From NCBI RefSeq assembly GCF_000337675.1, contig NZ_AOIB01000024.1, forward strand, positions 1-64,000: a stretch of DNA of 64,000 bases, read 5' to 3'. A program made the position numbers and the translations under genes. The DNA is from Natronococcus amylolyticus DSM 10524. GTDB taxonomy: Archaea; Halobacteriota; Halobacteria; Halobacteriales; Natrialbaceae. Positions 3,515 through 11,206 of the stretch are shown here, in pieces. Below the pieces are notes generated by a model, which had not been told where the DNA came from, ran no database searches, and saw only the letters and a list, made by a program, of their open reading frames with translations. Positions within the stretch are counted from its first letter, which is position 1, and every line of letters begins with the position of its first letter.

Positions 3515-6040
<2,526 letters not shown>

Positions 6041-7384
6041 CTACTCCTCTTCTTCCGGCTTGTCGGCCGCGTCACGGTCGATCCGCCGGCTGACGTCGAC
6101 CTGGTAGTTCTCGAGGATGTCCCGGCCCAGCAGGACGGGGTAGTCCATGTGGCTGCGGTCCTCGACGCTCGCGGTGACGGTGTGCTGATTGCCGCCGACG
6201 CCGACGACAACGTCGACGACGGGTCGGCTCTTGGACGTCTTGCTGCTACCGGACTTGACCCGTGTGATCGACTTGATCGGCCCGGCGCCGATGTCGGCCG
6301 CGAGCGAGGTGTCGATGCTGGTTCGGGTCGCGCCGGTGTCGGACTTCGCGAGCACCGTCTTCGAGCCGCTGGTTCCCGACAGGACGACCTCCTCGGTGTA
6401 GCCGATCACCGCGGACTCCCTGCCGAACGTCGACGCCTCGGGCGGCTTGGCCGAGGGCTGGGAGTCGTCGAGCACCGCCGAGAGCTCCCTGACCCGTCCG
6501 TCGTCGACCTCGCCGCCGGCGCGTTCGATCGCGAGCTTGGCGATGTAGGGTGCGGGACTGACCTGGGTCGCCTCGTACAGCCCCTTGAACCCGGCCGTCG
6601 GGTTGACCTCGAGGACGAACCAGCCCTCGTCGCCCTCGACGAGGTCGACGCCGGCGTAGTCGAGGCCGATAGCGTCGCTGGCACGTCTGGCCATGTCGCG
6701 GGCCTCCTCGGGGAGGTCGTCGGTCGCGTTCTCGACGGCGCCGCCGAGGGCGACGTTCGTACGCCAGTCGTTGTCGGGAGCGTAGCGGTACATCGCGCCG
6801 ATGATCTCGCCGCCGACGACGTAGACCCGGACGTCGCGGTGGCGTTCGTCCTCGCGATCGATGAGTTCCTGCAGGAAGGCGTAGCGGTTGCCGACCTTCG
6901 CGTTGATCGGGTCGTCGCGGCCGACCTTCCAGGTCCCGCCGCCGTGGGTGCCGATCGCCGTCTTGTAGACGGCTTCCTCGCCGTACCGGGATCGGACCTC
7001 GTTGAGCTTTTCGTTGCCCAGCGCGAGGGTCACGTCCGGAACTCGGACGTCGTCGGCCGCGAGCGTCGTCGCGGTCGACATCTTGTGGATCGCCGTCAGC
7101 ACCGACTGGGGACCGTTGAGCATCGGAACCAGTCCCGAGAGGGCGCTCGCCAACCCGAGTTCCTCGCAGGGCTGTTCGGTGTTCGACAGCAGCATCCGGT
7201 TGGCGATCACGTCGACCGACGGCTCGAGCGTGGCGCTCCCGTCGGCGACGCTGATCGCGGTGTTCTCCGTGCGAAGCCACTCGGTGTCGTGGCCCAGCTC
7301 CTCGGTCGCGTTGAGTATCGCTTTGGTCTCCTTGCTGGTGTGCAGGCTCAGTACGCCGACAGTGACGGGATCGGAAACGGTCAT
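6041..7384 (-). CDS. RimK-like ATP-grasp ligase fused to retropepsin-like aspartyl protease domain
   Basis: A 447-residue two-domain protein. Residues 1-295 form a RimK-type ATP-grasp amino-acid ligase: KTAIGTHGGGTWKV (141-154) is the ATP-binding lobe and FVLEVNPTAGFKG (256-268) carries the metal-binding Glu and Asn. Residues 325-435 are a retropepsin-like domain with the active-site loop AKSDTGATRTSI, in which Asp349 is the presumed catalytic residue, and a distal YPVLLGRDIL hairpin. Bacterial rimK operons often encode such a protease-like partner (RimB/ATP-dependent zinc protease family) separately; here it is one chain. ATG 7384 is preferred over an upstream ATG at 7420 because a TATA-like element lies between them. 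The substrate is unknown; glutamylation or cofactor tailing are possibilities. Confidence 0.9.
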   Translation of the reverse strand: MTVSDPVTVGVLSLHTSKETKAILNATEELGHDTEWLRTENTAISVADGSATLEPSVDVIANRMLLSNTEQPCEELGLASALSGLVPMLNGPQSVLTAIHKMSTATTLAADDVRVPDVTLALGNEKLNEVRSRYGEEAVYKTAIGTHGGGTWKVGRDDPINAKVGNRYAFLQELIDREDERHRDVRVYVVGGEIIGAMYRYAPDNDWRTNVALGGAVENATDDLPEEARDMARRASDAIGLDYAGVDLVEGDEGWFVLEVNPTAGFKGLYEATQVSPAPYIAKLAIERAGGEVDDGRVRELSAVLDDSQPSAKPPEASTFGRESAVIGYTEEVVLSGTSGSKTVLAKSDTGATRTSIDTSLAADIGAGPIKSITRVKSGSSKTSKSRPVVDVVVGVGGNQHTVTASVEDRSHMDYPVLLGRDILENYQVDVSRRIDRDAADKPEEEE

Positions 7385-7403
7385 ACAGTATAGAGACGAA
7401 CGG

Positions 7404-9195: not shown

Positions 9196-9948
9196 TTACA
9201 GGTACGAGGAGTCCCAGCGAGTCGGCTTGCGACGGTTGCCACAGGCGTTACACTCGATGCGGCCCATCGTGTCCATCGCGTTGTCGATCGAATCGCAGTT
9301 GCCACAGAGCCAGCCGTATCGGTCGGACTGGTCCTCGCTCTCGTAGGCGCCGTAGAACGGCGCCTTCGAACCCCGATCGGCGTCGCCGTAGCTGACGTAC
9401 ACCGTCTTGTCGTCGACCTCGAGTTCGTCGATGGCGGTCCACTCGTCGCCGCTCTCGATCTCGTTTTCGACGTAGATGTTCTCGGTGAACGTCTCCTCGC
9501 CGATCTCGACCTCGCGCTGGTCGGCCTGTTCGAAGCCGTGGTCCGCGTAGAACGTGTTGCCGCCCTCGTTGTCTTCGAGGACGAAACACTGGACCTGGTC
9601 GGCGCCGTCATCGAGGAGCTTCTCGCGGGTGCGAACGAGCAGCCGAACGCCGATCCCGTCGCCGCGGGCGTCGGGGTCGATGTGGAGCCACAGTAGCTGA
9701 CCGTTGCTGTACTGCTGGCCGACCAGTTCGCTGTGGGAGAAGCCGATGACCTCGCCGTCGCGTTCGATAACCAGGATCAGCGAGTGATCGTCGGCGATAT
9801 CGTCGGCGAATCCCTCGCCGTACCACTGCTCGATGGCGCTGTCGATCGTCTCCTCTCCGAGAAAGTCCGTGTAGGTCGACGAGAGCGAGTCGTGGGCGAT
9901 CGAACGGATCGTGTCGGCGTCGGCGTCGGTCGCTTCGCGAATCTCCAT
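9196..9948 (-). CDS. GNAT N-acetyltransferase with C-terminal zinc ribbon
   Basis: A 250-residue cytoplasmic protein. Residues 1-155 are a GNAT acyl-CoA transferase domain: it begins MEIREATDADADTIRSIAHD, the acetyl-CoA loop is DPDARGDGIGVRLL, and FYADHGFEQ gives the late motif B. Residues 156-205 form an extra beta-rich segment. The C-terminus is a zinc ribbon with CGNC and, 20 residues later, CNAC. The fusion suggests a protein or RNA substrate, but that is inference. I start at ATG 9948 because it begins directly with the GNAT fold; an upstream in-frame ATG adds five residues. The 270 bases between this gene and the flippase hold nothing recognisable. Confidence 0.85.
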   Translation of the reverse strand: MEIREATDADADTIRSIAHDSLSSTYTDFLGEETIDSAIEQWYGEGFADDIADDHSLILVIERDGEVIGFSHSELVGQQYSNGQLLWLHIDPDARGDGIGVRLLVRTREKLLDDGADQVQCFVLEDNEGGNTFYADHGFEQADQREVEIGEETFTENIYVENEIESGDEWTAIDELEVDDKTVYVSYGDADRGSKAPFYGAYESEDQSDRYGWLCGNCDSIDNAMDTMGRIECNACGNRRKPTRWDSSYL

Positions 9949-10108
9949 GCGCGTACCGTACAAGTCGGGGATACAAAATCTATGCCCTGAATTTCAACTG
10001 CCTTACGCTACCTGGACGGCCGGGCCGGACGAGTGACTCCGAGCACGCCGTGGCGCGGTCCCGGGACGGCAAACAAAGATTCAGGAGGGTTCCGGCCCAG
10101 GGGCAACT

Positions 10109-11206
10109 ATGAGCGGTAACGACGCGGCCGACGACTCGAGCGGGTCGTCTGACTCGCCGCCGATCGACGACGACGTCTTCACCTACGACGGCGGTCGGGT
10201 CGATCCCGGCGAGTCGGCGAACATCCGGTACGGCATCAGCGAAACCTACCTCGGCGATCCCGTTCGGATCCCCGTCACGATCATCAACGGGGAGCGGTCG
10301 GGGCCGACGATGTTTCTCTCGGCGGCCGCACACGGGGACGAACTCAACGGGATCGAGGTCGTCCGCGAGGTGGCCCACGACTGGGACCACTCCGACCTCC
10401 ACGGAACGCTGGTCTGTCTCCCCGTGATGAACGTGCCCGGATTCCTGGCCCAGGAGCGGTACCTGCCGATCTACGATCGGGACCTCAACCGATCGTTCCC
10501 CGGGCGGGAGGGGTCGACCAGCGCGAGGCGGATGGCCCACCGGATCTTCACGAACTTCATCGAACCCTGTGACCTGGGGATCGACTTTCACACCTCGACG
10601 CGGGGGCGGACGAACATGCTCCACGCCCGGGCGAACATGGGCGACTCCGGCGCCGCCCGGGTCGCGAGCGCGTTCAGCTCCCACGTCATCATCGCGGGTC
10701 AGGGGCCGTCCGGGACCCTGCGCCGCGAGGCGACCGACGCCGGCGTTCCGACCGTCACGATCGAGATGGGCGAGGCCCACCGGTTCCAGCGACGGTTGAT
10801 CGACCGCGCGCTCACCGGCGTCGCCAGCGTGTTCGCGGAGTTCGGTCTCCATCCGGGTGCGGCCGTCCACTGGCCGGGCTGGCGCACCGTCATCGACAGC
10901 GACGACGAAAAGACCTGGCTCCGGGCCGACGCCGGCGGGATCGTCGACATGAAACACGGCCGGGGCTCGCTCGTCGAGGAGGGCGACGTGATCTGTACCA
11001 TCACGAACCCGTTCAAGGAAAAAGAGGACATCGTCACCGTCGAGGCCCCGTTTACGGGGTTGATCGTCGGCGTCCTCGAGAACCCCGTCGTCTACCCGGG
11101 GAACCCGCTCTGTCACCTGGTCGGCCTCGAGTCCGACACCCGAACGGCCCTGGAGAACGACCGGACAGGATCCAGAACCGGCCCGCAGTCCCAGCTCCCG
11201 ATGTGA
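10109..11206 (+). CDS. Succinylglutamate desuccinylase/aspartoacylase-family zinc hydrolase
   Basis: A 365-residue member of the M14-like AstE/AspA family, which hydrolyses N-acyl amino acids with a single zinc. Ligands are visible in SAAAHGDELNGIE (His and Glu), and the third His is in LGIDFHTSTRGR. TIEMGEAHRF supplies the catalytic glutamate. The last 100 residues form the biotin-lipoyl-like barrel common in this subfamily (GIVDMKHGRGSLVEEGDVI onward). The first 20 residues are an acidic Ser-rich lead. It stands alone between divergent and parallel neighbours. In haloarchaea this family is widespread and of unproven substrate, so I give no specific name. Confidence 0.9.
   Translation: MSGNDAADDSSGSSDSPPIDDDVFTYDGGRVDPGESANIRYGISETYLGDPVRIPVTIINGERSGPTMFLSAAAHGDELNGIEVVREVAHDWDHSDLHGTLVCLPVMNVPGFLAQERYLPIYDRDLNRSFPGREGSTSARRMAHRIFTNFIEPCDLGIDFHTSTRGRTNMLHARANMGDSGAARVASAFSSHVIIAGQGPSGTLRREATDAGVPTVTIEMGEAHRFQRRLIDRALTGVASVFAEFGLHPGAAVHWPGWRTVIDSDDEKTWLRADAGGIVDMKHGRGSLVEEGDVICTITNPFKEKEDIVTVEAPFTGLIVGVLENPVVYPGNPLCHLVGLESDTRTALENDRTGSRTGPQSQLPM

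Follow-up and report, generated by a model that had tools for sequence, protein, structure and literature searches.

The window analyzed here is a stretch of 64,000 nucleotides from Natronococcus amylolyticus DSM 10524. On its minus strand, positions 6041-7384 form one uninterrupted frame, running from an ATG to a TAG, of 447 codons plus the stop with no internal stop codons. The 447-residue product, which we call RimKB, consists of a RimK-like ATP-grasp ligase fused to a RimB-like retropepsin. The ligase part occupies approximately residues 1-290 (6515-7384, minus strand) and matches the Pfam model RimK (PF08443) at residues 100-275 (E = 1.7e-23; 83.7 bits against a cut-off of 21). A variable linker (residues 291-325; 6410-6514, minus strand) separates it from the retropepsin domain of the RimB/RloA type (residues 326-435; 6080-6409, minus strand), where PF05618 ("Zn_protease") matches residues 370-435 (E = 1.3e-10; 41.8 bits against a gathering cut-off of 27). 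We take PF05618 to be the family of the RimB/RloA retropepsins, although its Pfam name remains "zinc protease." The DTG region was also matched by the aspartyl-protease models PF13650 and PF13975, and the catalytic triplet D349-T350-G351 lies at 6332-6340 (minus strand) within the motif AKSDTGA. An earlier note on this DNA had placed an ATP-grasp domain and a DTGA protease in a single chain, with residue 349 as the catalytic Asp; both statements hold. A 501-residue open reading frame on the plus strand (5888-7393) is most likely a spurious frame opposite the coding strand, as arises in GC-rich DNA.

Chance cannot account for the fusion. Of 342 genomes drawn evenly from the order and scored at a threshold of E ≤ 1e-60, 311 carry RimKB, nearly always at full length and in one frame (mostly 98%-100% of the query), and in the family to which the window belongs 117 of 118 genomes have a match at E ≤ 1e-20. 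The ligase-protease (K-B) fusion is the norm among haloarchaea, not unusual. For alignment we used the best 80 of 133 relatives (L007-L086) obtained from a scan of named genomes, which range from Natronococcus to Haloferax, Halobellus, Haladaptatus, and Haloplanus, and which together with the window gene give 81 sequences. All 81 (best 80 of 133 plus the window) have D-T-G, embedded in (A)K(S/A)DTGA; invariant residues are spread over both domains, and no internal stretch varies more than the linker. The earlier note had allowed for a frameshift, a separate start before the second domain, or a DTG loop that is not conserved. None of these was found: no Met codon in the linker is common to all 81 sequences (best 80 of 133 plus the window), and the commonest Met column there is occupied in 25 of the 81, with no Met in the window gene. 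Explanations of RimKB as a frameshift, a split gene, a chimera, or an internal-start product are rejected, since most of the 342 genomes carry the fused frame intact. Both halves are under purifying selection, with median dN/dS values (NG86, close orthologues) of 0.125 for the ligase and 0.072 for the protease.

The ligase half scores 156 bits with TIGR00768 (RimK subfamily; cut-off 143.4), the Haloferax orthologue lying slightly below that cut-off at 135.7 bits. It falls short of the S6--L-glutamate ligase equivalog (RimK proper, PRK10446; 60.9 versus 331 bits) and of the LysX, MptN, and CofF equivalogs (121 versus 276, 124 versus 350, and 49 versus 300 bits, respectively), and the next-best scores, behind the RimK family, come from the LysX and MptN models. 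Its closest sequence relatives in the PDB are LysX/ArgX enzymes (5k2m, 3vpd, and 1uc9). This is the only half for which AlphaFold gave a usable model (pLDDT mostly 75-95, lower in some loops), and a Foldseek search with that model returned E. coli RimK (4iwx), Pseudomonas RimK with RpsF (5zk6), and LysX/ArgX with LysW at the top, with E values of about 1e-18 to 1e-17. Seven residues assigned to ATP/Mg and acceptor binding (K141, R186, R208, N210, D247, E259, and N261) align with those of two separate RimK proteins, from Salinivibrio and a methanogen, and of a bacterial RimBK hybrid, and the same seven are conserved across the orthologues. However, because the ligase half is equally similar to LysX/ArgX, which conjugate single amino acids, synthesis of poly-glutamate by RimKB is uncertain. 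LysX and ArgX themselves act on LysW and have no fused protease. The host genome encodes three further RimK-domain proteins, two of them without a protease domain.

For the retropepsin half, the PDB sequence relatives are 9g59 and 9g58; with RloA of Pseudomonas aeruginosa (mBio 2025, PMC12239564), these are its closest solved relatives. RloA is a secreted, single-domain protein whose operon also encodes a transglutaminase-like membrane protein, whereas the N terminus of RimKB is the ligase domain. The signature AKxDTGA ... R ... DRxxM ... LLGR is present in RimKB. By motif and spacing, K347 (6344-6346), D349, R387 (6224-6226), and R410 (6155-6157), all on the minus strand, correspond to K46, D48, R114, and R137 of RloA, and the spacing of 23 between R387 and R410 is identical to that between R114 and R137. 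In RloA, K46, R114, and R137 surround D48 and touch poly-Glu; both arginines are required for activity, R114A and R137A being the strongest among the contact mutants (PMC12239564). All four RimKB residues are invariant, or nearly so, in the 81 sequences (best 80 of 133 plus the window). That the four positions serving catalysis and poly-Glu binding in RloA are kept here is a new observation. The domain is shorter than free RimB and scores 14.4 bits with the RimB equivalog NF052261, below its cut-off of 200. A profile-profile comparison with methanogen RimB gave E = 2e-4 but a probability of only 47%, a low value that probably stems from shallow alignments on both sides, and AlphaFold models of the domain are unreliable both within the full chain (pLDDT about 28) and by itself (40). 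The assignment of homology therefore rests on the Pfam matches, the PDB sequence matches, and the motifs.

The earlier note had read the fusion as a Rosetta-stone link, on the grounds that rimK operons of bacteria often carry a separate retropepsin. In bacteria, separate rimB and rimK genes do occur together, in the order rimB-rimK-M14 in Salinivibrio and Acaryochloris and rimK-M14-rimB in Vibrio nigripulchritudo. In Methanosarcinaceae (a lineage inferred from gene content, i.e., KatG and a methanogen-like RimK context), rimB and rimK are adjacent separate genes, directly followed by an M14 gene homologous to that at 10109-11206 of the window (E about 1e-51 to 1e-56). Functions that occupy three separate genes in these operons are thus partly fused in haloarchaea. 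The methanogen RimK reaches the S6-ligase equivalog at 480 bits, whereas the haloarchaeal ligase half fails to do so. With the active-site Asp and the poly-Glu-binding basic residues kept as well, the Rosetta-stone reading stands. Pseudomonas offers a functional parallel, in that RimK and RimB are antagonists acting on poly-alpha-glutamate and RimB also activates RimK; there, however, the genes are separate, the third component, RimA, is a phosphodiesterase rather than an M14 enzyme, and the acceptor is RpsF (bS6). This acceptor is a bacterial ribosomal protein. Bacterial RimB trims the poly-glutamate made by RimK from RpsF and stimulates RimK (PMC11957791), and by homology RimKB would trim the product of its own ligase half.

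Two further observations concern the separate genes. Mechanosensitive channel genes lie near rimB-rimK-M14 in three loci (L150, L160, and L161), annotated as such in Salinivibrio and Vibrio nigripulchritudo and similar-looking in the methanogen, hinting at an osmotic role. In an archaeal family outside the haloarchaea (f11; L111-L119), single-domain PF05618 retropepsins of approximately 180-196 residues occur with no RimK gene within 3.3 kb.

Fusion as such is not new in kind. Reportedly, Iyer, Aravind, and colleagues discussed ATP-grasp/retropepsin neighborhoods in 2009. Bacterial RimBK hybrids, which likewise join a RimB-type retropepsin to a RimK-type ATP-grasp domain in one chain, have been described with the protease first and the RimB part proteolytically active (Little et al., 2025, PMC11957791). 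The hybrid of Desulfotalea psychrophila (DP2392) gave no glutamylation of RpsF in those authors' hands, and they themselves raise the role of RimK outside the bS6 pathway as a question; their survey was restricted to accessions from bacteria and makes no mention of archaea (PMC11957791). Thioclava and Aureibacter (L158 and L159) also have the B-K order; neither hybrid ends in a Glu run, and no M14 gene lies in the two plasmid contexts examined. Because the haloarchaeal order is the opposite, K-B, the archaeal fusion most likely arose separately. What is new, besides the reversed order and the kept poly-Glu residues, is the Glu tail, the co-inheritance with the M14 gene, and the protease-dead paralogue described below. 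The open-access literature contained nothing on an archaeal RimK-protease fusion, its tail, a link to M14/aspartoacylase enzymes, or an assay of an archaeal member, and no archaeal poly-glutamylation with a known protein target was found there. Downstream of RimBK on the Aureibacter tunicatorum plasmid (L159) lie three small DUF1843 genes and genes for a radical SAM protein and a methyltransferase, an arrangement with the look of a modified-peptide cluster.

The M14 gene of the window (10109-11206, plus strand) is transcribed away from RimKB. Its product resembles AstE/AspA amidohydrolases, matching PF24827 at 161.8 bits (cut-off 25), with an HGDE motif that fits the zinc motif HxxE. M14 enzymes of the AstE/AspA type cleave N-acyl amino acids. 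An M14 gene is found in the same locus as RimKB in 73 of 80 cases (best 80 of 133), usually divergent and often directly adjacent. Comparison of the RimKB and M14 match tables, both at E ≤ 1e-60, showed that 311 of the 342 genomes have both genes, 26 neither, 5 M14 only, and none RimKB only (Fisher's test, P about 1e-34, a value that ignores relatedness and is a guide only). The pairing holds even in several genomes in which RimKB and M14 lie at a distance from each other (G170, G295, G384, and G456). In a smaller test, eight genomes lacking RimKB had only a distant M14 relative (29%-34% identity), while nine of nine with RimKB, including G170 and G384, had a close one (60% identity or more). 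Several losses fall in genera whose other members keep both genes (g9, g15, g18, g30, g32, and g164); being scattered in this way, they are likely to be independent, although some may be single deletions of linked genes. One genome (G259) and the genus g33 look complete and have neither gene, providing natural knockouts.

Other neighbors were considered as partners and rejected. In the window, a flippase gene and a gene for a GNAT acetyltransferase fused to DUF5816 (9196-9963, minus strand) lie between M14 and RimKB; both do so mainly in Natrialbaceae. GNAT-DUF5816, the flippase, and KatG were present at only 39, 37, and 32 of the 80 loci, respectively (best 80 of 133), again mainly in Natrialbaceae. 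Succinate dehydrogenase genes were linked in 60-66 of the 80 (best 80 of 133), but M14 and RimKB occur together without them in L032, L033, L044, L066, and L083.

The conserved fusion, the retention in the alignments of both active sites and of the putative poly-Glu-binding residues, the linkage and co-inheritance with M14, and the Glu tail would be best explained if RimKB is a bifunctional writer and eraser of glutamate, with the M14 enzyme acting on the same product, and we regard this as probable. The ATP-grasp half would use ATP to add glutamate, most likely as alpha-linked poly-glutamate, to an acidic C terminus. The retropepsin half, like other retropepsins, would need to form a dimer between two chains and would cut the poly-glutamate; it probably also stimulates the ligase, like free RimB in Pseudomonas. 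The M14 enzyme might trim from the end of the chain or hydrolyze released glutamyl or N-acyl fragments. In this scheme the ligase and protease activities, the specificity for poly-Glu, and the stimulation are presumed from the characterized relatives.

A candidate acceptor is encoded in RimKB itself. The chain terminates in ...DKPEEEE, the four glutamates being encoded at 6044-6055 (minus strand). EEE occurs within the last 12 residues in 70 of the 81 orthologues but in only 2 of 751 neighboring open reading frames of the same loci, and Glu is the final residue in 78 of the 81 (both for the best 80 of 133 plus the window); a few orthologues encode longer Glu runs. The nucleotide pattern GARx4-TRR (EEEE followed by a stop, or by TGG) has a single occurrence in the whole 4.4 Mb genome, the EEEE-stop of RimKB. 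Other genomes of the family have from 0 to 7 occurrences, often including RimKB. RimB requires five to six or more consecutive Glu residues and RloA eight, so that an encoded tail of four could be a stub that stays uncut until it is extended, although this is no more than suggestive. Known acceptors are also acidic at their ends, RpsF ending in GDSEE in E. coli and in DNADE in Pseudomonas. A speculative reading, possible but doubtful, is that the tail is a built-in primer and acceptor, which the ligase would extend into poly-alpha-glutamate, and that the retropepsin would either trim this chain back or free it for the M14 partner. RimKB would then act as a synthase of poly-glutamate, or as a self-timed switch, independently of the ribosomal protein bS6.

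The acceptor might instead be a separate protein, a haloarchaeal counterpart of bS6; the tail would then be just an acidic terminus of the haloarchaeal kind, or would sit in the protease cleft as an autoinhibitor. This is a possible but doubtful alternative, and it would leave the writer-eraser mechanism as it stands, differing only over the self-tail. Pseudomonas RimK and RimB do act on a separate protein, several open reading frames of the genome end in EEE, and the tail varies in length, being shortened in some orthologues, with EEE missing in 11 of the 81 (best 80 of 133 plus the window), and absent from a few apparently active ones. The enrichment of the tail over neighboring genes and the uniqueness of EEEE-stop argue against it, as does the lack of any Glu run at the ends of the methanogen and bacterial RimK and RimBK proteins examined, several of which are basic.

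A more distant departure from the writer-eraser reading is that RimKB works like LysX/ArgX, adding one amino acid to a C-terminal Glu, with the tail or a small protein as a LysW-like carrier from which the retropepsin or the M14 enzyme would release the product. The PDB matches, the ranking of the LysX and MptN models, and the LysX/ArgX structures with LysW described above are consistent with this, as is the cleavage of N-acyl amino acids by the AstE/AspA family; LysW, the substrate of LysX/ArgX, ends in Glu. However, the substrate of this retropepsin family must contain a run of five to eight Glu residues, which fits chains rather than single conjugates, and the three further RimK-domain proteins of the host, two of them without a protease, could fill LysX-type roles. 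We consider this reading unlikely.

A paralogue of RimKB with the same fusion lies elsewhere in the genome (contig C28, L087:5993-7318, minus strand); it shares 52% identity with RimKB, and its D349, T350, and G351 are changed to E, P, and V. In the tree it falls within a monophyletic group, sampled by 12 rows, of which 9 have lost DTG and 3 retain it; fusions of this type are those at L087 and L120-L131. Of the positions invariant among the orthologues, the ligase half retains 84 of 109, against only 28 of 57 for the protease half, and dN/dS is raised to 0.231 in the protease half but remains at 0.142 in the ligase half. The same Asp-to-Glu change in RimB (D31E) is dead and poisons the wild-type protein, presumably via heterodimers; by analogy, the L087 copy might act as a ligase alone or might inhibit RimKB. 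The survival of such DTG-less copies and the non-proteolytic, stimulating role of free RimB might suggest that the retropepsin half of RimKB is itself only a structural activator of the ligase that has lost cutting, but this is very improbable given the conservation of D-T-G and the substrate contacts in 81 orthologues (best 80 of 133 plus the window) and the lower dN/dS of their protease half. RimKB is carried by some nine in every ten haloarchaeal genomes sampled; with Haloferax as a ready genetic model, a co-inherited M14 partner, a protease-dead paralogue, and a candidate self-acceptor, the proposed archaeal poly-Glu system, and with it the role of RimK outside the bS6 pathway, becomes testable.

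In four Natronococcus loci (L120-L123), a pyridoxamine-5-phosphate-oxidase-like gene (L087:7493-7942, plus strand) is transcribed divergently from the protease-dead paralogue. An annotated PNPOx-family gene also follows the fused copy, here with an intact DTG, on a plasmid of Salinirubellus (L163).
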